From: Candidatus Lindowbacteria bacterium RIFCSPLOWO2_12_FULL_62_27
GTDB lineage: Bacteria; Lindowbacteria; 2-12-FULL-62-27
Reading direction: 5' to 3'
NCBI GenBank assembly: GCA_001784175.1
Contig: MFPR01000041.1
Coordinates: 1-64,000, forward strand
Length of the DNA stretch: 64,000 nucleotides
In this document: one piece after another, positions 18,090-27,602 of the stretch
How positions within the stretch are numbered: position 1 is the stretch's first letter
Layout: every line of letters begins with the position of its first letter
Translations under genes and position numbers: made by a program
Notes under the pieces: model-generated
Databases searched by the model: none
What the model saw: the letters and a program-made list of their open reading frames with translations, nothing else
What the model was told of the DNA's origin: nothing

Positions 18090-18118
18090 AGTGTATCCTT
18101 AACGGAGTCTTGCGGCAA
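18090..18118 (-). promoter_or_regulatory. Promoter of the aldo/keto reductase-heme-ispH unit
   Basis: TTGCCG (18113-18118), 17-nt spacer and TACACT (18090-18095) on the minus strand, then 6 nt to the ATG. It overlaps the 3' end of the Lon-like gene. The predicted transcript is leaderless. Confidence 0.65.
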
Positions 18119-19640
18119 GTGATTCCACCTGCGCGCAGGCAGTTTCCAGAGATTCCTCGGCTGCCTCGACAGGTTCGATGCCGCGTTTTTTGGCGTGTTT
18201 GGCCCACAGAGCGTCGAGGAGGCGCCGGACGGACCGAGGGGGTTGGTACGTCAGGAGGTGCCATCCGGCGGACAGAATCGCGATCGCGAGGATGGCGGTG
18301 ACCGCCGGGAGGATGAATTCGACCGGCAGGAAGAAGTCCGGGTCGAGGGCGACGATCAGAAGGGCCAGCGCGGTGAAGCCTGCGTACAGCAGGCCCCGCC
18401 AAAAATGCCCGGGGGAGGACGGCCGCAGCGCCGCCAGGCGGCTCAATGCCAGATCGACGCGGACGTCGCGTTCGACGGCGCGGATCTGTTTGAGGCGATC
18501 CGCCGCTTTGTCACAGGCCTCCGTCCAGTTTCGGACGAGGGCGTCGAACTCCTGTCCCGAGGAGAACCACGAGCCCTGGGTTGAGAGAATGCTTCCGACG
18601 GCTGCCATTTCCATCACCATTTTCTGGAGCGTTTCCAGATGGCCGGGCCGGCCGGCGGCCGGGAGTGAATCCTTGACTTTTCCGGCGCATTCATACGAAG
18701 CAATGCTCAACGCTCGTGAGACGCCGCCGGCCAGACGGTCCCGGCATTCACTCGAAAGCCGCGCGGCTTCCTGAAGACAGGCCCTCGCCGTCACCGTCCG
18801 GTTCCGGTCTTGGTGGTCCAGCGGCCGGTCCCATCGGACGGCGATGGGAAGCAGCGCGAGCGGCAGGTCCATTTCCGTGCACTGCGTTCTCAGGCAGGCG
18901 ACTCCCTTCAAGTACCACGCCTCGGCGTTGCGGCTGTCCAGGTTGAGAATCCGGTCGCACTTATCGATCGCGGCCGCCGGATCATTCCCGCGGAGGTCCA
19001 CCCGGGCGCGGTTCAGAAGCGAGGCGGCCAGAAGCGCGGCGTCCTGCGGATCGGACGAGAGGGCCGTGTCCGGCAAATTGATTTCGAGCGGATACGAAGC
19101 CGCGATTTGCTCGAGTGTCTGCCTGAGGGTTTTCACGCAGTGAACCTTGATGCGCGCCATGTGGATCTCCGATTCGCCGCCGTCGCCCGGGATGACCAGC
19201 TCGGAAAACGCGCCGGCCGACGGCGCGTTCAGGAATTGGAGCTTCAGTTTCATGCCGTCGCGGTCAATCGGCAGCACCCGCCCGTCCTGGGCGAGATCGC
19301 CGGTGCAAAGGACGTGGCCGAGCGGAATCTGGCAATAATAGGACGCCATGGCCAGCGCGGCCGCCAGCGTCAGCGACCGGCCTTCAATGTAGACGTTCGA
19401 TTTTGTCGTGACGCGTTGCCAATCGATAGCGTAGAAACCGCTGCGGGTGGGCAGGGGGGTTTGGAGGACCGCGGCCAGCGCGGCCCGGGCGTCATTGAAG
19501 GCGGCCATGCACGAGTCGCTCCAGGCCGTGGTTTCTCTCGCGCCCGGATCGAAACGCAGGTAAATGATATCGCCCTTATGGGTCTCCTCGTTCACCACCA
19601 GGACGCCCAGGATCCCGTGTTGTCCCGCGACTCCGCTCAT
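18099..19640 (-). CDS. Lon-type (S16) protease domain protein with TPR region and membrane anchor, no ATPase
   Basis: 513 residues. Residues about 60-155 resemble the Lon proteolytic domain: EGRSLTLAAALAMAS with the nucleophile-position Ser89, CTGDLAQDGRVLPI, and Lys133 in DGMKLKLQFL, giving a Ser-Lys dyad. There is no AAA+ module. The middle is helical with one TPR-like pair (AAIDKCDRILNLDSRNAEAW). Two hydrophobic segments near 425-470 suggest membrane attachment by the C-terminal part. It is the last gene of a unit with a sigma-like factor and an unknown protein, and the start overlaps the previous gene by 65 nt. A role in regulated proteolysis is an inference. Confidence 0.7.
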   Translation of the reverse strand: MSGVAGQHGILGVLVVNEETHKGDIIYLRFDPGARETTAWSDSCMAAFNDARAALAAVLQTPLPTRSGFYAIDWQRVTTKSNVYIEGRSLTLAAALAMASYYCQIPLGHVLCTGDLAQDGRVLPIDRDGMKLKLQFLNAPSAGAFSELVIPGDGGESEIHMARIKVHCVKTLRQTLEQIAASYPLEINLPDTALSSDPQDAALLAASLLNRARVDLRGNDPAAAIDKCDRILNLDSRNAEAWYLKGVACLRTQCTEMDLPLALLPIAVRWDRPLDHQDRNRTVTARACLQEAARLSSECRDRLAGGVSRALSIASYECAGKVKDSLPAAGRPGHLETLQKMVMEMAAVGSILSTQGSWFSSGQEFDALVRNWTEACDKAADRLKQIRAVERDVRVDLALSRLAALRPSSPGHFWRGLLYAGFTALALLIVALDPDFFLPVEFILPAVTAILAIAILSAGWHLLTYQPPRSVRRLLDALWAKHAKKRGIEPVEAAEESLETACAQVESLAARLR

Positions 19641-20784
19641 GGGCCCACCTCCTCAAAGACGGTGTGCCGAACCGGTCAATGGCACTGCGTATATTGTCCC
19701 AAGCCGGATGGTCGCTGTCGAGCCGCACGACATGTTTGAATTCCTCTTCAAGAATGACTCTGAGGATCGGGTCCCGTTCCACCGAAATCGCATTGAGGAG
19801 TTCCCCGACGCCGACGCCGGCGCGGTCGAACTGGTCGGCCATGTCGCAAAAGGCGTCGATCTCGGCCGTCGATGCAGTCCCGGGCACCGGATAAAAATCG
19901 ACTGCGACGCGGCGGGCGCCCCTCTCGAAGATGCCCTGAAATTGATGCGCGTTCTGGATGTCTGTTTCAAAGCGCCAGAGGAGAATACTCCCGTGTTGCG
20001 TCGCCTCGGCGGGGATTACATGAGACCGATCGTCATAAAACACAGCTCGCACCGGCTCCTCTTCCGACCAGGCGCCGATCGCCAGAGACCCGTCCAGATA
20101 TTCAATGGTGGCGATCCTCAATCCCTTGTCGACTTCCATCGCCCGATATCCCGCAATCCGCCCGGCCGACGTGTCCAGGGTTTTTGCGGCAAGAATCAGC
20201 ATCTGGGGATCCGCCGTCGAAGACCGGCGGACGGGCGCAACCGGAAAGGCGATCCCCTTGTCCTCGAGGTGAACCCGAATGAGATTACGGTCGTCGGCCC
20301 GGCGCACCCGGCGCTCGTCGTTCTCCTTCAACATCGACGGCCCGATCCGGTGGGGAGGCACGCGGCCGGCGTAGACGGCCTCACGGCCCTGCCGATCGAG
20401 ACACACGATCTCGTCCATCAACGCGCCGGACAATTCGAAAACGAAAACCCCCAGCCGCGTCCGGCTCAGGGAGAATTTTGCCCACAGTTGAACGGCGAAA
20501 TCCGCGCCGAGTCCTGTTTCCGCCGCGCCGACGCAGAAATCATCCGAGGCGGCGGCGGAGAGATCAAATGAAAGCGGCGCCGCGACCGCATCGACGCCCG
20601 CATCGTTGCCGCCACGCGTCTCCAGCAGGATCACATGAAGGGGCGGCAGGTCAAAGACCAGGTGCGCGGGCTTTTGAAGGCGCCAAATCTGCCCGGCGGC
20701 CGGCTGCGGTTGGAAAGGCGATGGAGCATTCGCCGGGCGTTGGCCGCGGATTCGATTGAACCAATCATGATGGATGCCGGTCAT
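19576..20784 (-). CDS. Hypothetical protein between sigma-like and Lon-like genes
   Basis: 402 residues, no recognised domain. No signal peptide or membrane segment is apparent, so it is probably cytoplasmic. The central part (about 90-260) alternates beta-rich stretches such as LGVFVFELSGALMDEIVCLD and MLILAAKTL; the end is helical and charged, with a low-complexity Arg/Gly tail produced where the frame overlaps the next gene. It starts 18 nt after the sigma-like gene and overlaps the Lon-like gene by 65 nt, so the three are likely made together. A regulatory partner of one neighbour is possible but unproven. Confidence 0.6.
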   Translation of the reverse strand: MTGIHHDWFNRIRGQRPANAPSPFQPQPAAGQIWRLQKPAHLVFDLPPLHVILLETRGGNDAGVDAVAAPLSFDLSAAASDDFCVGAAETGLGADFAVQLWAKFSLSRTRLGVFVFELSGALMDEIVCLDRQGREAVYAGRVPPHRIGPSMLKENDERRVRRADDRNLIRVHLEDKGIAFPVAPVRRSSTADPQMLILAAKTLDTSAGRIAGYRAMEVDKGLRIATIEYLDGSLAIGAWSEEEPVRAVFYDDRSHVIPAEATQHGSILLWRFETDIQNAHQFQGIFERGARRVAVDFYPVPGTASTAEIDAFCDMADQFDRAGVGVGELLNAISVERDPILRVILEEEFKHVVRLDSDHPAWDNIRSAIDRFGTPSLRRWAHERSRGTTRDPGRPGGERGDP

Positions 20785-20802
20785 GGCCGCCTCCTCTTTT
20801 TT

Positions 20803-21810
20803 CTACCTATTAGTTTCAAACGGATACTTCCCGGTGTTTTCCAATTCCACCGTGCAAATTCGGGCGAGGCGGCCGATGACCTGCTCGATCTCCCCAAGGG
20901 AGGAATTCGGCGGATGGGCGGCCCGGACGCTGATCGCGATGTGGGTCAGAACGTTCTGGGCGGATGTCGGCGATGACCATCCGGCTCGCCTTGCGATTTC
21001 GGCCAATCCAACGCCGGCGGATCGGAGGGCGAGGACCGCCCTTTCCGTCGGGGTCAGATTCTTTGCGATCTGCTCGGCCATGAGTTTTGATTCGACGTCC
21101 ATGTCCGGCAAAGCGGCCGGGTCCGTTTCCGGACTCCGCCCTCCCTCCGCGCCGGGGGCGTCGGCGCTCACGATCTTCAGGCGCGCCAGGGGCATGCACC
21201 ATTTTAGAATATGAATGACATCCCGGACGGCGAGATGGAGCGGCCCGAACGTGAGGAAGAGGTCCGACAGCCAGACCGTCAGGTCCCGCCGGTCGGGAAG
21301 GTATTCGCCGCGCCTGAGAGGGGACCGGGAGGCCGTTTCGAGCGAAATTTCTTCGAGGCGCAGATCGCCCGGATGTTCCGGCGGCGTCTCCCGCCATTTC
21401 TCATGCGTGAACATATCCGCCGCGCCCGAGCCGGCGGGCCCGCGCGCGGATCGGACGAACGGCGCGTCCGAAAGGATCTTCACCAGAATCTTGAACAATT
21501 TGTATTCCTCCTCCGACCGGCGCCGATCGATCAGAATCTGGTGGACGACGGTCTTCAGAAGGCTGACGAGCAGCCGCCCGGGCGAAGGGCTGCCGGCGAT
21601 TTCGACGTGTCCGCGCGTAAAGACCCGCTCGAGCGCCTCGGCGGTGAGATCTTCAAACTCGATCCCCTGGTAATACTCTGTCGGATATTTCCGCATGACC
21701 AATCCGCGAACGCGCTCCTGGACGATTTCCCAGAAACGCCGTTCTTCTTCCGGGGTTGCTTTTCCCTGGAAACAGCGCTCAAAGAGGGAGTCCAACGGTC
21801 CGGTCTCCAT
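20803..21810 (-). CDS. Sigma-70-like RNA polymerase factor with long linker
   Basis: 335 residues from ATG 21810. Residues 1-100 resemble sigma region 2 (FEDLTAEALERVF, LKTVVHQILIDRRR). The C-terminal part has a region 4-like helix-turn-helix (LTPTERAVLALRSAGVGLAEIARRAG). Between them lies an unusual linker of more than 150 residues with no known motif. The frame stays open to an upstream start at 21852, but ATG 21810 is preferred because a TACCGT box sits 6 nt upstream. Divergence from ECF consensus leaves its class uncertain. It leads the unit with the unknown and Lon-like genes and is divergent from the Tad pilus operon, which it could control. Confidence 0.7.
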   Translation of the reverse strand: METGPLDSLFERCFQGKATPEEERRFWEIVQERVRGLVMRKYPTEYYQGIEFEDLTAEALERVFTRGHVEIAGSPSPGRLLVSLLKTVVHQILIDRRRSEEEYKLFKILVKILSDAPFVRSARGPAGSGAADMFTHEKWRETPPEHPGDLRLEEISLETASRSPLRRGEYLPDRRDLTVWLSDLFLTFGPLHLAVRDVIHILKWCMPLARLKIVSADAPGAEGGRSPETDPAALPDMDVESKLMAEQIAKNLTPTERAVLALRSAGVGLAEIARRAGWSSPTSAQNVLTHIAISVRAAHPPNSSLGEIEQVIGRLARICTVELENTGKYPFETNR

Positions 21811-21816
21811 GCGAGC

Positions 21817-21846
21817 ACGGTAACTGGCGGAACGAGGCTTTCGCAA
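21817..21846 (-). promoter_or_regulatory. Promoter of the sigma-like gene unit
   Basis: TTGCGA (21841-21846), 18-nt spacer and TACCGT (21817-21822) on the minus strand; the ATG at 21810 follows after 6 nt. The spacing repeats the close -10-to-start pattern found at other unit-leading genes. Confidence 0.5.
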
Positions 21847-21985
21847 TCCCAAGTCATTTCAGCCGCTTGGAGGAATTCGACGGCCGGCGGACTGCAAAAT
21901 GCGGCCAACCCTGCGTTCAAGTTGGGTGAAGGGGCCGTAGTGAGGCCGAAGTTCTTTGGCAATGGAATTAAAGGAGGCAGGGGCG

Positions 21986-22171
21986 GTGAAAACACGCGGG
22001 TTGAACGCATGCCGGGGGCAGGGAATGGTGGAGTATCTGCTGGTTCTCGCGGTAGTGATCGGAACCACCGTCGCAGCCATGAGCGCCATCTCCGAATCGG
22101 CTTCCACGGTCATCCGCGCGCTGGTCACCCACATTCAACAGGTGACCGGCGTCGAAGCCCCGGCGAATTAG
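21986..22171 (+). CDS. Flp-type pilin
   Basis: 61 residues from GTG 21986, chosen because a strong AAGGAGG lies 8 nt upstream; an ATG at 21956 precedes that site. The N-terminus ends CRGQGMVEYLLVLAVVIG, a class IVb prepilin processing site: cleavage after Gly leaves Glu at +5 followed by Tyr. A hydrophobic helix and a short polar tail follow. It should be the structural subunit, or a minor subunit, of a Tad pilus. It is the first of two pilin genes at the head of the operon, and unlike many genes here it has a real leader and Shine-Dalgarno site, fitting high expression. Confidence 0.88.
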   Translation: MKTRGLNACRGQGMVEYLLVLAVVIGTTVAAMSAISESASTVIRALVTHIQQVTGVEAPAN

Positions 22172-22207
22172 ACGGCCCGAGGCGCCTGTGGAAAGGAGGA
22201 CTGTGGA

Positions 22208-22390
22208 ATGAACGCGAACAAGCAGATTTTGGAGAAAGGCCAGGGATTGGTGGAGTACCTGCTGATCGTCGCGGTGGTGGTGGCCCTCGTGGTCGCCGCC
22301 GGCAAGGTGTACTTCGACTCGACGAGCGGCGCGACGACCACCATCACGGGAAAAATCAGCAGCTCGGCGGCGAATCCGGTCGGCCCTTGA
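22208..22390 (+). CDS. Flp-type pilin, second copy
   Basis: 60 residues: EKGQGLVEYLLIVAVVVALVV contains the same G/QGxVEY processing site as the first pilin, followed by a helix and a Ser/Thr-rich tail. AAAGGAGG about 8-10 nt before the ATG is a strong ribosome site. The tail differs enough from the first pilin for distinct roles (major versus minor). A strong hairpin follows the stop codon. Confidence 0.88.
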   Translation: MNANKQILEKGQGLVEYLLIVAVVVALVVAAGKVYFDSTSGATTTITGKISSSAANPVGP

Positions 22391-22477: not shown

Positions 22478-22933
22478 ATGGATGTGATTCACATGATGAT
22501 TCGAAACACAATTCCATCTTCTCGCCGCCCTCCGCAGCAGGGCCAGGCATTGGCGGAGACCATGCTGATGGTGCCGTTCTTCATCCTCCTCATGATGCTC
22601 CTGGCCGAATTCGGCGTCTACTTCTACAGGAGCAATCTTCTGGAGGACACGGCCCAGCAGGTGGCCCGGATGGCGGCCCGGAACGCGACGCTGTCCGATA
22701 TCCAGAATTATTCGAATGAAAAATTGTATACCCTGCAGCCGCAACTGGCGGTCCTGAACGCGCTGAATGAGCCCGTCGATGCGTGGTCGTCCGACCAGAC
22801 GCTTCAAATCAAACTCACCGCGACGGTCCAGCCGGTCATGCCGATCTCGGCATTGAACATATTTTCGCCCGGGACCGATTTCTTTCCGGCGGCGTTTACG
22901 CTCGAATCCAAGAAACAGGTTTACGTGGAGTGA
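22478..22933 (+). CDS. tadE: TadE-like pseudopilin
   Basis: 151 residues with one N-terminal membrane helix. QQGQALAETMLMVPFFILL is the TadE-type leader (G, A/T, E, then hydrophobic), followed by FYRSNLLEDTAQQVARMAARN, typical of TadE-like proteins. It is an assembly pseudopilin processed by the Tad prepilin peptidase. Several in-frame Met codons (residues 1, 6, 7) leave the exact start open. It lies 5 nt before tadG. Confidence 0.8.
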   Translation: MDVIHMMIRNTIPSSRRPPQQGQALAETMLMVPFFILLMMLLAEFGVYFYRSNLLEDTAQQVARMAARNATLSDIQNYSNEKLYTLQPQLAVLNALNEPVDAWSSDQTLQIKLTATVQPVMPISALNIFSPGTDFFPAAFTLESKKQVYVE

Positions 22934-22938
22934 GGGGC

Positions 22939-23817
22939 ATGCGGCGCCATTACAAGCCGAACGGTGCGCAGGGCAGCATGCTGCTTTCATTTCTCCTGAG
23001 TATGGGCGCCGTCACTGTCGTCTTCGGGTCCATCATCGAGTCCTCGCTCCTCCTGCACGCCCGAACCCGCATGTTCAATGACGCGCAAAACGCGGTCGTG
23101 GCGGCCGCCGATCTCTATTTTTCCGGAGTCGAGGATCCGGAAACACTCCAGGCGGCGGTCCGGGATCAGTATTGCGTGACGACGTTTCTGGATGCCGGCG
23201 CGACCCGCCTCGATTTCAGCCGGATCGCCGACCACCTCCTGATCCTCCACTCGGCAAAACCGGTCCCCTTTCTGTTCCTGCCGGATAGGGTGGTTCTGAA
23301 CGTTTCCATGGCGGCGGTGATTCCCCAGGTCGTCTATGGCCTGAGCGGCCTCGTGCCCTTCGCGGTCGTGGCGCCGGAGGGTGGGTTCGTGTACGGCGAG
23401 CTCTACACGCTCAAATTCGGCGGAGGTGACGGCCAAACCGGAAATTATGGCGCCCTCGCGCTGGATGGCAGTGGCGCCTCGAACTATCTCGATAAATTGG
23501 AGTTCGGGTATGACCAGGTCGTCCGCGTCGGGGACGTCCTGACCACGGAACCGGGAAACATGAAAGGCCCGACGGATGAGGGGATTTCCTATCGCCTGGA
23601 TCAGGGGAACGACGTCATCTTCGTGGTCGTGACAGATCAGCTTCCCAACGGCCGGGGCGAGATCGTCGTCCGGGGATTCGCGGCATTTCGCGTCCAGTCG
23701 GCCACCGCCCGGGGCGACGTGACCGGAGACTTCATCGAGTACCGGACCTCCGGGGAGGCCGGGCCGGGCGCGAACGATTACGGGCTCTACACGCGGTCCC
23801 GACTGGTGTTCTTTTAG
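22939..23817 (+). CDS. TadG-like pilus assembly protein
   Basis: 292 residues from ATG 22939; a longer frame upstream overlaps tadE and is not coding. The N-terminal GAQGSMLLSFLLSMGAVTVVFG is a membrane anchor, followed by FNDAQNAVVAAADLYFSG, which matches TadG-type proteins. The rest is a periplasmic beta-rich domain, including TEPGNMKGPTDEG as found in TadG-associated domains. It probably anchors or caps the pilus between inner membrane and cell wall. It is followed after 1 nt by the secretin gene. Confidence 0.72.
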   Translation: MRRHYKPNGAQGSMLLSFLLSMGAVTVVFGSIIESSLLLHARTRMFNDAQNAVVAAADLYFSGVEDPETLQAAVRDQYCVTTFLDAGATRLDFSRIADHLLILHSAKPVPFLFLPDRVVLNVSMAAVIPQVVYGLSGLVPFAVVAPEGGFVYGELYTLKFGGGDGQTGNYGALALDGSGASNYLDKLEFGYDQVVRVGDVLTTEPGNMKGPTDEGISYRLDQGNDVIFVVVTDQLPNGRGEIVVRGFAAFRVQSATARGDVTGDFIEYRTSGEAGPGANDYGLYTRSRLVFF

Positions 23818-23818
23818 C

Positions 23819-25045
23819 ATGACCGCGCTCCTCTTCCTCCTGGCGTGGGCCGCCGCCGGATACGGCGAGATGTCCCAGATCAAAGTCGCCGTCGGGGAAT
23901 TCAAGACGGTCACCGCGGCCGACCGGATCGTCCGGATCGCCGTCGCGGCGCCGGACATCGCCGACTACACCGTCATCTCCAAGCGGGAGGTGCTGATCAA
24001 CGGCAAGTCGATCGGGCGGACCAGCATGAAAGTCTGGACGCCCGACGACCAGGTCACGTATCTCGTCGATGTCATCGATCTCAAGCAGGCCAGGCTGGAA
24101 AGCGTGATCGACAACCCGTCGCTGGTCGAAAAAATTCGAAAGGTCATCGGCCATCCGGACGTCCAGGTGACCAGCGCCGGCCGCGGCGTCATTTTGAGCG
24201 GAAGCGTCGGGACGGAGGCAGAGAAGCAGAGTACGGAGAAAATCCTCCGGGCCTTCCTGCCCGACCCGGACCAGGACGTCACCAACATCCTGGAAGTTCG
24301 AAGGAAACCCCGCCAGGTCCGGATGAAGGTCCGGATCATGGAGATCTCCGAAAACGCGGGCAAATCCCAGGGCATCGACTGGGGTAGTTTCAGAAACTCG
24401 GCGGACCCGACCGTGTTTCGCGACCGGGACCTGCACGATCAGTATTCGCTGACCGGCGCGTTTGCTTCGGGCCTGCCGCCCCGGGTGGCGCTGCCGTTCA
24501 AAAAGAGCCGTGCCTTTTCGATGGTCGATCCCTTCATGATGCAGATCAACTTCCTGATCGACAGCGGCGTCATCCGGATCCTGTCCGAGCCCGAAATCGT
24601 GGCGCTGTCGGGCGCCCGGTCCGACGTTCTGATCGGCGGCCAGGTTCCCGTCCCGCTGATGACATCGACGCAGATTTCCGTCAGTTGGAAGGACTACGGG
24701 ATCAAGATGTCGCTGGAGCCCAATATCGACATCGACAGCCAGGTGACCGCGAAGATCTATACGGAGGTCAGTACCCTCGACTATACCAATGCCGTGACCG
24801 TCTCCGGATTCTCCATTCCGGCCCTGAAGGTCACCCAGGCCACGAGCGAGATCCAGGTGAAACCCGGCCAGACGATCTTCTTAAGCGGTCTCAAACGCGA
24901 AATCAACACCAAATCCGAAAAGGGGTTCCCGGGTCTGTCAGGAATCCCGGTCGTGGGGAATGCCTTCGGGACCCGGAACAAAAAAACGGACAAGGTGGAG
25001 CTGGTCATCAGCGTCACGCCGTATATCGTCGATGAGGTCCCCTGA
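23819..25045 (+). CDS. cpaC: Tad pilus secretin CpaC/RcpA
   Basis: 408 residues: signal peptide, an N-terminal pilus-assembly domain (TVTAADRIVRIAVAAPDIAD, then INGKSIGRTSMKVWT), a BON-like segment (QVTSAGRGVILSGSV), then the secretin domain (LSEPEIVALSGARSDVLIGG, KPGQTIFLSGL). It is shorter than many CpaC proteins but complete. It forms the outer-membrane channel for the pilus. Translation is probably coupled to tadG and cpaE, which lie 1 nt away on either side. Confidence 0.92.
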   Translation: MTALLFLLAWAAAGYGEMSQIKVAVGEFKTVTAADRIVRIAVAAPDIADYTVISKREVLINGKSIGRTSMKVWTPDDQVTYLVDVIDLKQARLESVIDNPSLVEKIRKVIGHPDVQVTSAGRGVILSGSVGTEAEKQSTEKILRAFLPDPDQDVTNILEVRRKPRQVRMKVRIMEISENAGKSQGIDWGSFRNSADPTVFRDRDLHDQYSLTGAFASGLPPRVALPFKKSRAFSMVDPFMMQINFLIDSGVIRILSEPEIVALSGARSDVLIGGQVPVPLMTSTQISVSWKDYGIKMSLEPNIDIDSQVTAKIYTEVSTLDYTNAVTVSGFSIPALKVTQATSEIQVKPGQTIFLSGLKREINTKSEKGFPGLSGIPVVGNAFGTRNKKTDKVELVISVTPYIVDEVP

Positions 25046-25046
25046 C

Positions 25047-26252
25047 ATGACGGACAAACATACGGTTCTCTTCATCGGGCGCGGTCAGACGTACGACGAC
25101 TTGAAATTGTATCTCCAAAATTTGAAAGAGATCGAACTGCATCACGAGGACGTGGCGGCGGTGGAGGAAATGAAAAACGGCCATTCGGATATCCTGATGA
25201 TCGAATACGCCAAAAACCACGAGAACACGTGCGGCCTTCTCGAGGAACTCTGCGCGCGGTATCCCGACTGCATTCTGCTGCTCATGGCGCCTCAGAAACC
25301 GGGACCGGAGCAATTGATGCAGTACATGAAATGTGGCGTCCGCGACATCGTCACCCCGGACGACAATCTGGAGGCGTTTCTGCAAAAGGCCGTCGCGCTG
25401 ATCCACCGGCGGTCGGAGGCGGGCCGGCCCGGCGCCGGCCGGCTCGGCCGGGTCCTGTGTTTTTTCAGCTCGAAAGGCGGCGTCGGGAAGACGTTTCTGG
25501 CGGTGTCCGCCGGTCGTGTGCTGGGCCAAAGCCCCGAGCGCCGGACCGTTCTGGTGGACTTCGATCTTCAGTTCGGCGACATGGACCTTTACCTGGACGC
25601 GAACAGTCCCAGGACGATCGGAGAATTGTTCGAGGAGGTCCGGAACAACGGCGACCGGCTGTCCGATTTTATTTTGGACAGCCACGTCCATCCGGTCACG
25701 CCCACCTTGCACCTTCTGTCCGCGCCGCTGTCGCCGGAAAAGGCGGAATCTATTCAGAGCGGGTCGGTCGTCCAGTTGATCAAGGCATTGAAGAAACGGT
25801 ATGACTTCGTCGTCCTCGACGCCGGCGGCGTCCTGAACGACATCGCCCTGGCGGCCTTCGACAAGGCGGACCGCATATTTCTCGTGGTCAACGGCGAGAT
25901 CGCGTCCATCAAAAACGCCGGGCAGACCTTTCAACTGCTGAAAAAACTGAATTATGACGAAACCAGGATCGACTTTGTCGTCAATGCGGTTTCGGAAACA
26001 TTTCCGCTGGACGAGGGAACGTTGATGAAGATCCTGACGCGCAAGCCCGTCGCGCGGATCCCGGCGTCGGCGCGCGTCCGGGAGTCGATCAACCAGGGGT
26101 ACAACCTCGTCCTGAAAAAGCCGGAGGACCCGGCCGTCCGGGGCATTCGGGAATTCTGCGGAAAAATCGCCGCGGATTTCAACGTCCGGCTGGATCTCCG
26201 GGACCGGCCGTCCGGATTTTGGGGCCGGCTCTTCAAGGCCGGAGCGGCCTGA
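25047..26252 (+). CDS. cpaE: Tad pilus localisation ATPase CpaE/TadZ
   Basis: 401 residues from ATG 25047, directly after the secretin stop. Residues 1-120 form a degenerate receiver-like domain (ILMIEYAKNHENTCGLLEEL). Residues 130-390 are a MinD/ParA-type ATPase with a deviant Walker A (SSKGGVGKTFLAV), Walker A' VLVDFDLQFGDMDLYL and YDFVVLDAGG. TadZ/CpaE proteins position the pilus machine at the pole or membrane. Part of the Tad operon. Confidence 0.92.
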   Translation: MTDKHTVLFIGRGQTYDDLKLYLQNLKEIELHHEDVAAVEEMKNGHSDILMIEYAKNHENTCGLLEELCARYPDCILLLMAPQKPGPEQLMQYMKCGVRDIVTPDDNLEAFLQKAVALIHRRSEAGRPGAGRLGRVLCFFSSKGGVGKTFLAVSAGRVLGQSPERRTVLVDFDLQFGDMDLYLDANSPRTIGELFEEVRNNGDRLSDFILDSHVHPVTPTLHLLSAPLSPEKAESIQSGSVVQLIKALKKRYDFVVLDAGGVLNDIALAAFDKADRIFLVVNGEIASIKNAGQTFQLLKKLNYDETRIDFVVNAVSETFPLDEGTLMKILTRKPVARIPASARVRESINQGYNLVLKKPEDPAVRGIREFCGKIAADFNVRLDLRDRPSGFWGRLFKAGAA

Positions 26253-26267
26253 GAGGGCGGCGCGACC

Positions 26268-27602
26268 ATGTCCCTGTTGACACGCCTCGATGGGGGGCGC
26301 ACGGTGGCCGAGGAACCCGTTTCCGTATCCCCCCAACCCGAGGATCAATTCAGGACGGATCTGCATCATTGGCTCGTCGACAAATTCAAGAAAGAGCGGC
26401 CGGCGGGTGGGAGGACGAACGATCGCGAATTCATGCGGCGGAAAATCACGGCGGAAATCAAGGCCCATCTCGAACAGCATCGAAAGAATTTCACGCCCGG
26501 ACAGGTCGGCGTTCTGGTCGAGGACATGGTGAACGAAATGGCGGGCTTGAGCATCCTCGAGCCTCTCCTGAACGACGAGGAAATTTCAGAAATCATGGTG
26601 AATGGCCCTGACCGGATCTACGTCGAAAAGAGGGGCAAACTGATGAAAAGCGACTGCCGGTTCCGCGGCGAAGAACACCTCCGGCATGTCATCGACCGGA
26701 TCGTCATGCCGCTGGGCCGGCGCATTGACGAGACCTCGCCCATGGTTGACGCGCGGCTGCCGGACGGCTCCCGCGTGAACGCCGTCATTCCGCCGCTGGC
26801 GCTGAACGGGTCCTCGCTCACCATCCGGAAATTCTCAAAACGGAAACTGGATATCGAGGACTTGATACGTTTCGGCACCCTCAGCGCGAAAATCGCGAAA
26901 TTTCTCAACTACTGCGTGAAAGGCAGACTCAACATCGTGGTGTCCGGCGGCACCGGATCCGGCAAGACGACGACCCTGAACGTTCTTTCCTCCTTCATCC
27001 CGCATGACGAGCGGATCGTCACCATCGAGGACGCAGCGGAATTGAAGCTCCTTCAGGAGCACGTCGTGTCGCTCGAAACCCGCCCGGCCCCCCACGCCGA
27101 GGGCGTGCCGGTGACCATCCGGGACCTGGTGCGAAACGCCCTCCGCATGAGGCCGGACCGCATCGTGATCGGGGAATGCCGCGGCGGCGAGGCCCTCGAC
27201 ATGCTGCAGGCCATGAACACCGGGCATGACGGATCCCTCACCACGGCACACGCCAATTCGCCGCGAGACATGCTGGCCCGGCTTGAGACGATGGTCCTCA
27301 TGGCGGGCATGGATCTGCCGGTGCAGGCCATCCGGGCGCAGATCGCCGGTGCCGTCGACCTGATCATCCAGCAGAGCCGCCTTCGGGACGGGAGCCGAAA
27401 AATCACCCGGGTCACCGAGGTCCAGGGCATGGAAAACGACAAGATCATCCTGCAGGACCTCTTCGAATTTTCGCAGACAGGGGTGGACGGGAGCGGCCGG
27501 GTCCTTGGATCGTTCGAGAGCATGGAACTCATCCCCAAATTCCTCGGGAAAATCGAACGGGAAGGGGTCAAGATTGATTATGACATATTCAAGCGTGAGT
27601 AG
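26268..27602 (+). CDS. cpaF: Tad pilus secretion ATPase CpaF/TadA
   Basis: 444 residues, type II/IV secretion ATPase. Walker A GGTGSGKTTTLN lies near residue 226, with the Asp box around IVTIEDAAELKLL, Walker B-region RPDRIVIGECRGGEALDML and the His box GHDGSLTTAHANSPRD. It powers pilus polymerisation from the cytoplasm. The N-terminal domain (about 1-180) is the usual CpaF form. 15 nt from cpaE; its 3' end overlaps cpaB by 23 nt. Confidence 0.95.
   Translation: MSLLTRLDGGRTVAEEPVSVSPQPEDQFRTDLHHWLVDKFKKERPAGGRTNDREFMRRKITAEIKAHLEQHRKNFTPGQVGVLVEDMVNEMAGLSILEPLLNDEEISEIMVNGPDRIYVEKRGKLMKSDCRFRGEEHLRHVIDRIVMPLGRRIDETSPMVDARLPDGSRVNAVIPPLALNGSSLTIRKFSKRKLDIEDLIRFGTLSAKIAKFLNYCVKGRLNIVVSGGTGSGKTTTLNVLSSFIPHDERIVTIEDAAELKLLQEHVVSLETRPAPHAEGVPVTIRDLVRNALRMRPDRIVIGECRGGEALDMLQAMNTGHDGSLTTAHANSPRDMLARLETMVLMAGMDLPVQAIRAQIAGAVDLIIQQSRLRDGSRKITRVTEVQGMENDKIILQDLFEFSQTGVDGSGRVLGSFESMELIPKFLGKIEREGVKIDYDIFKRE

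Follow-up and report, generated by a model that had tools for sequence, protein, structure and literature searches.

What does a Lon-type protease that has no ATPase do in an operon that opens with a sigma-like gene? The question is raised by a three-gene unit in a 64,000-nucleotide stretch of contig MFPR01000041.1 from Candidatus Lindowbacteria bacterium RIFCSPLOWO2_12_FULL_62_27 (assembly GCA_001784175.1; the whole stretch is called the window). Three co-directional open reading frames (ORFs) on its minus strand, 18099-21852, encode a sigma-like factor (gene 1), a middle protein (gene 2) and a Lon-like protein (gene 3), in that order. Judging from sequence comparison, we consider with a probability of about 0.6 that they form a protease-triggered sigma switch independent of CRISPR (clustered regularly interspaced short palindromic repeats). 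The genes are tightly packed: 18 nt separate the stop of gene 1 from the start of gene 2, the start of gene 3 overlaps gene 2 by 65 nt, and strong Shine-Dalgarno sequences precede gene 2 (AGAGGAGG) and gene 3 (GAGGAGGTGG). The start of gene 1 is ambiguous (TTG at 21852, TTG at 21846 or ATG at 21810) and has no clear ribosome-binding site. A first-pass annotation of this DNA had described three ORFs in one overlapping unit, and this arrangement is confirmed.

We sampled 386 genomes for homologues. At 7/7 loci, in four genomes and two phyla, a sigma-like gene lies next to a MazF-like one: the window and loci C30, C28 and C35 of the same genome, which therefore holds four such pairs, genomes G001 and G002 of the same family, and genome G197 of another phylum. 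What accompanies the pair differs from locus to locus. A Lon-like third partner occurs in the window, in G002, where the complete order sigma, middle, Lon is found, at C30, where one of two tandem Lon-like genes encodes just a 234-aa Lon domain and the other a Lon domain plus a single membrane segment, and in G001, where the sigma-like gene is followed by a MazF-like/Lon fusion. At C35 a MazF-like/TPR fusion is followed by a ClpX-like AAA+ protein (E 1.6e-45), an FlhB/FlhA-domain protein and a BPH-type proteasome homologue (E 1.3e-12). In G197 one gene lies between the pair and a CHAT protease (Pfam CHAT, E 5e-15), and at C28 a TPR part is fused to the MazF-like domain. Across the loci the pair stays the same, and what changes is the proteolytic machine, which belongs to at least three unrelated types.

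Co-occurrence of the three genes had been named by the first-pass annotation as a check on the unit, and they do occur together in G002, at C30 and, in fused form, in G001. Because gene 3 has a full-length homologue with 41% identity in another genus and the gene order recurs, the unit is not a chance assembly. The evidence consists of homology and position, which would also suit three neighbours without a joint function, but the order recurs at both paralogous and orthologous loci, and together with the overlap and the gene fusion this makes that explanation very improbable. A search of genome contigs gave chiefly TPR matches, the named collections otherwise contained no homologue, and none was found in the viral contigs and plasmids searched.

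Some of these loci have further peculiarities. The C35 locus (L040, 103-10425, minus strand) is a co-directional series encoding the sigma-like protein, the MazF-like protein with TPR, a fusion of a ClpX-like domain to an FlhA cytoplasmic domain, a protein combining an FlhB C-domain, FlhA and DUF6745, and the BPH-like homologue; it is very unusual to find an unfoldase fused to flagellar export domains next to a proteasome homologue. The G001 fusion (L019, 5893-7449, plus strand) is 519 aa long and has a C-terminal DUF7664. The same genome carries a decayed second Lon gene (L018, 8258-8934) with 77% identity to gene 3 over the first 128 residues, in which a frameshift is present and the central part is lost, and which has no sigma or middle gene. 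A similar three-gene set (an RKRVLI... protein and two LPP20-like proteins; L004 3142-5584 and L026 10959-13343) flanks the C30 and C28 units.

The Lon domain of gene 3 was nearly missed by single-sequence searches (LonB TIGR00764, E 0.07; Lon 2 in PDB, E 0.016). A profile of the six-member family, by comparison, matches Lon and LonB catalytic domains across PDB, the best being Methanocaldococcus jannaschii LonB (1xhk, E 9.2e-8), and in this alignment Ser89 falls on the GDS motif and Lys133 on NEK. The catalytic serine is invariant in 6/6 relatives and the lysine in all five that are complete. Pfam and NCBIfam scans of gene 3 found no AAA+ domain, and PADLOC gave a weak CRISPR-Lon match (E 0.037). 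Outside the family, the Lon profile found mostly frames of ordinary Lon/LonB size among the sampled genomes. The remainder of gene 3 is helical, with one TPR-like unit (TPR_16, E 0.0064, and 1.4e-4 in the G002 orthologue, both under the cut-off) and a membrane hairpin of two hydrophobic segments at about residues 412-463, both shared with the G002 orthologue and the hairpin at the same position. The Lon domain with its Ser89/Lys133 dyad and no AAA+ module, the TPR-like helices and the two membrane segments had all been proposed at first pass, and all were found, the TPR-like helices as one unit under the cut-off. These comparisons support the assignment of gene 3 as a Lon-type protease that lacks an ATPase and keeps both residues of the dyad.

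Gene 2 has no match in Pfam, NCBIfam or PADLOC, and its nature had to be approached through its family. A profile of the seven N-terminal domains was compared with a MazF/PemK profile built from proteins of related genomes, and the two align with an hhalign score of 32.2 (P 9e-5). The controls stayed lower, the maximum being 17.1 for 40 shuffled or reversed MazF profiles and 20.9 for 72 unrelated real families, and when one sequence at a time was dropped the score remained at 27.7-37.0. A profile search of PDB with the same domain gave few matches, mostly MazF chains and in register, each non-significant alone. Because the profile score exceeds its controls and the PDB matches are mostly MazF, a MazF-like fold is likely for the N-terminal domain. 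As a separate candidate, a DUF1822 identity (PF08852) for gene 2 was ruled out (hhalign E 0.45-0.93, no Pfam match).

A MazF-like fold raises the question of whether the unit is of toxin type, with the domain as a latent RNase freed by the protease and the sigma-like gene as a regulator or antitoxin. The profile match itself, conflict-type partners such as CHAT, the patchy occurrence and the decay in G001 would fit such a unit. On inspection of the seven sequences, however, the RRP arginine motif on strand 2 of the MazF RNase is not conserved, the Ser/Thr position being partly kept, and the partner gene is always sigma-like and never antitoxin-like, which leaves a toxin quite unlikely.

The sigma assignment of gene 1 is modest but real. 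NCBIfam TIGR02937 matches residues 37-300 with E 4.8e-6 and 26.3 bits against a curated cut-off of 42.9, regions 2 and 4 are each recognised weakly on their own, and the sigma-family profile aligns weakly with extracytoplasmic function (ECF) factors of the same genome in the region-2 and region-4 blocks. The G197 relative matches sigma families. Between the two regions lies a linker of about 140-150 residues, whose small conserved module is also present in the G002, C30, G001 and G197 relatives; the sigma-like first gene with a long linker, as described at first pass, is supported to this degree. Such a linker is not unique, since a 433-aa factor beside DUF1822 in another genome (TIGR02937, E 8e-33) also has one. 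Small ORFs with only a sigma region-4 helix-turn-helix occur near the sigma-like genes of C30 (L071, 1483-1734, plus strand) and G001 (L019, 2949-3317, minus strand), and in these sigma-like genes region 4 was not recognised.

Taken together, these assignments suggest how the switch could operate. Gene 2, whose N-terminal half is probably MazF-like, would bind the sigma-like product of gene 1 and block it. Gene 3 would be a membrane-anchored protein whose S16 domain and TPR-like part are predicted to be cytoplasmic, and its Ser89/Lys133 protease could work without an ATPase because its substrate would be delivered as a bound partner. A signal received through the TPR or membrane part of gene 3 would switch the protease on, a specific cut would be made in gene 2, and housekeeping proteases may clear the remnants. 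The liberated sigma factor would then alter transcription of its regulon, perhaps with its own operon among the targets. In G001 a single polypeptide contains both the MazF-like and the Lon domain, and the closest experimental precedents, CalpL/CalpT/CalpS and Csx29/Csx30/CASP-sigma, operate alike. The first-pass annotation had suggested a protease that controls the sigma factor, the middle protein being target or adaptor; given the constant pair, the swapped protease and these precedents, the version in which the middle protein is the target is the best model here.

A different division of labour is conceivable, in which the protease has the sigma factor itself, or another substrate, as its target, and the middle protein presents that substrate as an adaptor instead of being a cut anti-sigma factor. 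Lon-family proteases often degrade regulators, the second, unrelated C-terminal domain of gene 2 could serve as an adaptor, and the G001 fusion would fix the MazF-like domain as part of the protease. We nevertheless regard the adaptor as unlikely: the sigma and MazF-like pair is constant while the protease varies, and in the characterised analogues the protein that is cut is the anti-sigma factor (CalpT or Csx30). Since the pair can exist without Lon, as at C28, where the pair has no known protease, a sigma/anti-sigma relationship is the easier reading.

Several observations weigh against a proteolytic sigma switch and limit our confidence in it. No protease could be recognised next to the C28 pair, and among the sampled genomes the module was detected in one small family and one distant genome. 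The score of gene 1 lies under the TIGR02937 cut-off, and of its six homologues five (C30, C28, C35, G001 and G002) had no match in NCBIfam. The MazF match of gene 2 exists at the level of profiles, with no significant single PDB match, and AlphaFold2 models from single sequences (predicted local distance difference test score, pLDDT, 31 for the gene 2 N-domain and 39 for gene 3) were not used.

Table 1. Features of the three-gene unit and of the adjoining pilin genes in the window
Feature	Position	Strand	Basis
Gene 1, sigma-70/ECF-like factor, 349 aa from TTG or 335 aa from ATG 21810	20803..21852	-	TIGR02937; six further loci with homologues
Sigma region-2-like segment, residues 37-115, EDLTAEALERVF...LLKTVVHQILIDRRR	21508..21744	-	region-2 half alone, E 0.0028
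Conserved small linker module, residues 187-228, LTVWLSDLFLTFGPLHLAVRDVIHILKWCMPL	21169..21294	-	alignments
Sigma region-4-like helix-turn-helix, residues 262-308	20929..21069	-	weak HTH_38/HTH_IclR matches; inside TIGR02937 match
Gene 2, 402 aa, proposed anti-sigma factor and protease substrate	19576..20784	-	family at seven loci, always directly after the sigma-like gene
MazF/PemK-like N-terminal domain, residues 30-135 (AGQIW...)	20380..20697	-	hhalign against MazF profile
Gene 2 C-terminal domain, residues 208-395	19600..20163	-	alignment; common only to the G002 and C30 middle proteins
Gene 3, Lon-type protease without AAA+ module, 513 aa	18099..19640	-	ORF and domain searches
S16 (Lon) proteolytic domain, residues 1-182	19095..19640	-	family profile against LonB/Lon catalytic domains
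Ser89, predicted catalytic nucleophile (EGRS)	19374..19376	-	aligned with LonB Ser
Lys133, predicted catalytic general base	19242..19244	-	aligned with LonB Lys
TPR-like segment, residues 198-253	18882..19049	-	TPR_16, below cut-off
Membrane hairpin, residues 412-463	18252..18407	-	Kyte-Doolittle, 19-residue windows up to 2.3
Two tandem Flp-type pilin genes opening the divergent Tad operon	21986..22390	+	translation, ribosome-binding site AAAGGAGG

Which genes such a sigma factor would serve is a separate question, and the nearest candidate is the neighbouring Tad pilus operon. Between gene 1 and the Flp pilin genes lie about 130-175 bp, according to which gene 1 start is used, and the pilin genes are followed by TadE, secretin, CpaE and CpaF genes (22478-27602); the operon is treated here as a neighbour of the three-gene unit. 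If the unit were a dedicated regulator of this operon, which concerns the choice of target and not another mechanism, one could point to both intact orthologues, in the window and in G002, which adjoin a Tad operon despite differing orientation (in the window unit and operon are divergent, whereas in G002 the unit lies upstream and is co-directional). The module flanks only two of the four Tad operons in the family, however, being absent from that of G001 (C39) and from the second one of G002 (C104), and the paralogous units C30, C28 and C35 are located away from Tad operons. Because two of the four operons lack the module, we have downgraded this reading and now consider it rather doubtful. 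Of what had been proposed at first pass, the divergent position stands, and control of the Tad operon is possible with weak support.

Three-gene switches in which a protease releases a sigma factor have so far been characterised mainly as CRISPR effectors. Somewhat short of even odds, we would suggest that a CRISPR-independent core, sigma factor plus MazF-like anti-sigma factor, plugs into S16 Lon-like, CHAT or ClpX-like/proteasome machines, each with its own sensor, and that CalpL/CalpT/CalpS and Csx29/Csx30/CASP-sigma are CRISPR-recruited versions of this older switch. If so, a CRISPR-free switch with protease and sensor exchanged between loci of one genome would be the likely ancestral form. 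It would also offer a modular system in which to learn what each protease senses, and new compact protease/substrate pairs with no ATPase requirement.

Among known systems, the RseA/DegS and RsiW cascades share the principle that regulated proteolysis liberates a sigma factor, but there the anti-sigma factor sits in the membrane, while here the protease does. Archaeal and bacterial LonB and other S16 proteases have the same proteolytic domain and Ser-Lys dyad, whereas gene 3 has no AAA+ unfoldase and carries its protease domain at the N-terminus, with the TPR and membrane part C-terminal. Operons of an ECF sigma factor, DUF1822 and a CHAT or caspase protease have been discussed (PMC8195603), and tandem sets of sigma, DUF1822 and CHAT genes occur several per genome in G048, G192 and G323 (L054-L059). 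These share the order sigma, middle, protease with the present unit, and the G197 relative also has a CHAT gene, but gene 2 has no detectable relation to DUF1822 and the present protease is Lon-type.

The closest likenesses lie among CRISPR effectors. In Craspase, of type III-E CRISPR, Csx29 cleaves the CASP-sigma inhibitor Csx30 (PMC10028731). The combination of a protease, a sigma inhibitor and an ECF sigma factor, with TPR within the protease, resembles the present unit, but Csx29 is a protease of the CHAT type that Cas7-11 and RNA switch on. In the type III CRISPR system of Sulfurihydrogenibium, the Lon protease CalpL, the anti-sigma factor CalpT and the ECF sigma factor CalpS form one complex (PMC11417357), and CalpL cuts CalpT to release CalpS (PMC11417357, PMC12751052). 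The statement at first pass that no such system had been described is therefore wrong in kind: CalpL/CalpT/CalpS is a precedent, and a long-linker sigma factor beside a partner gene is found elsewhere. The likeness extends to an ATPase-free Lon protease, a middle protein as proposed substrate and an ECF-type sigma factor, and the corresponding features are present here as a Lon Ser-Lys domain without AAA+, a MazF-like middle protein (at profile level) and a sigma-like factor (TIGR02937 below cut-off). CalpT itself was reportedly described as MazF-like in a 2023 report in Nature, which would strengthen the parallel. The differences are that the CalpL sensor is a SAVED domain binding cyclic tetra-adenylate (cA4), where gene 3 has a TPR-like part and a membrane hairpin, that the Calp locus is CRISPR-linked, and that gene 1 has a long linker. 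A Pfam scan of gene 3 found no SAVED domain, a genome search for SAVED (PF18145) found none, its controls being equally silent, and no CRISPR-like array was found within the window, Cas genes in the rest of the genome lying outside the search. Because neither a SAVED domain nor a type III CRISPR locus was found in these tests, we class the three-gene unit as one that probably works like CalpL/CalpT/CalpS and is not a member of that system. With no SAVED domain and no array in the window, it would represent a new form of a known type of switch.

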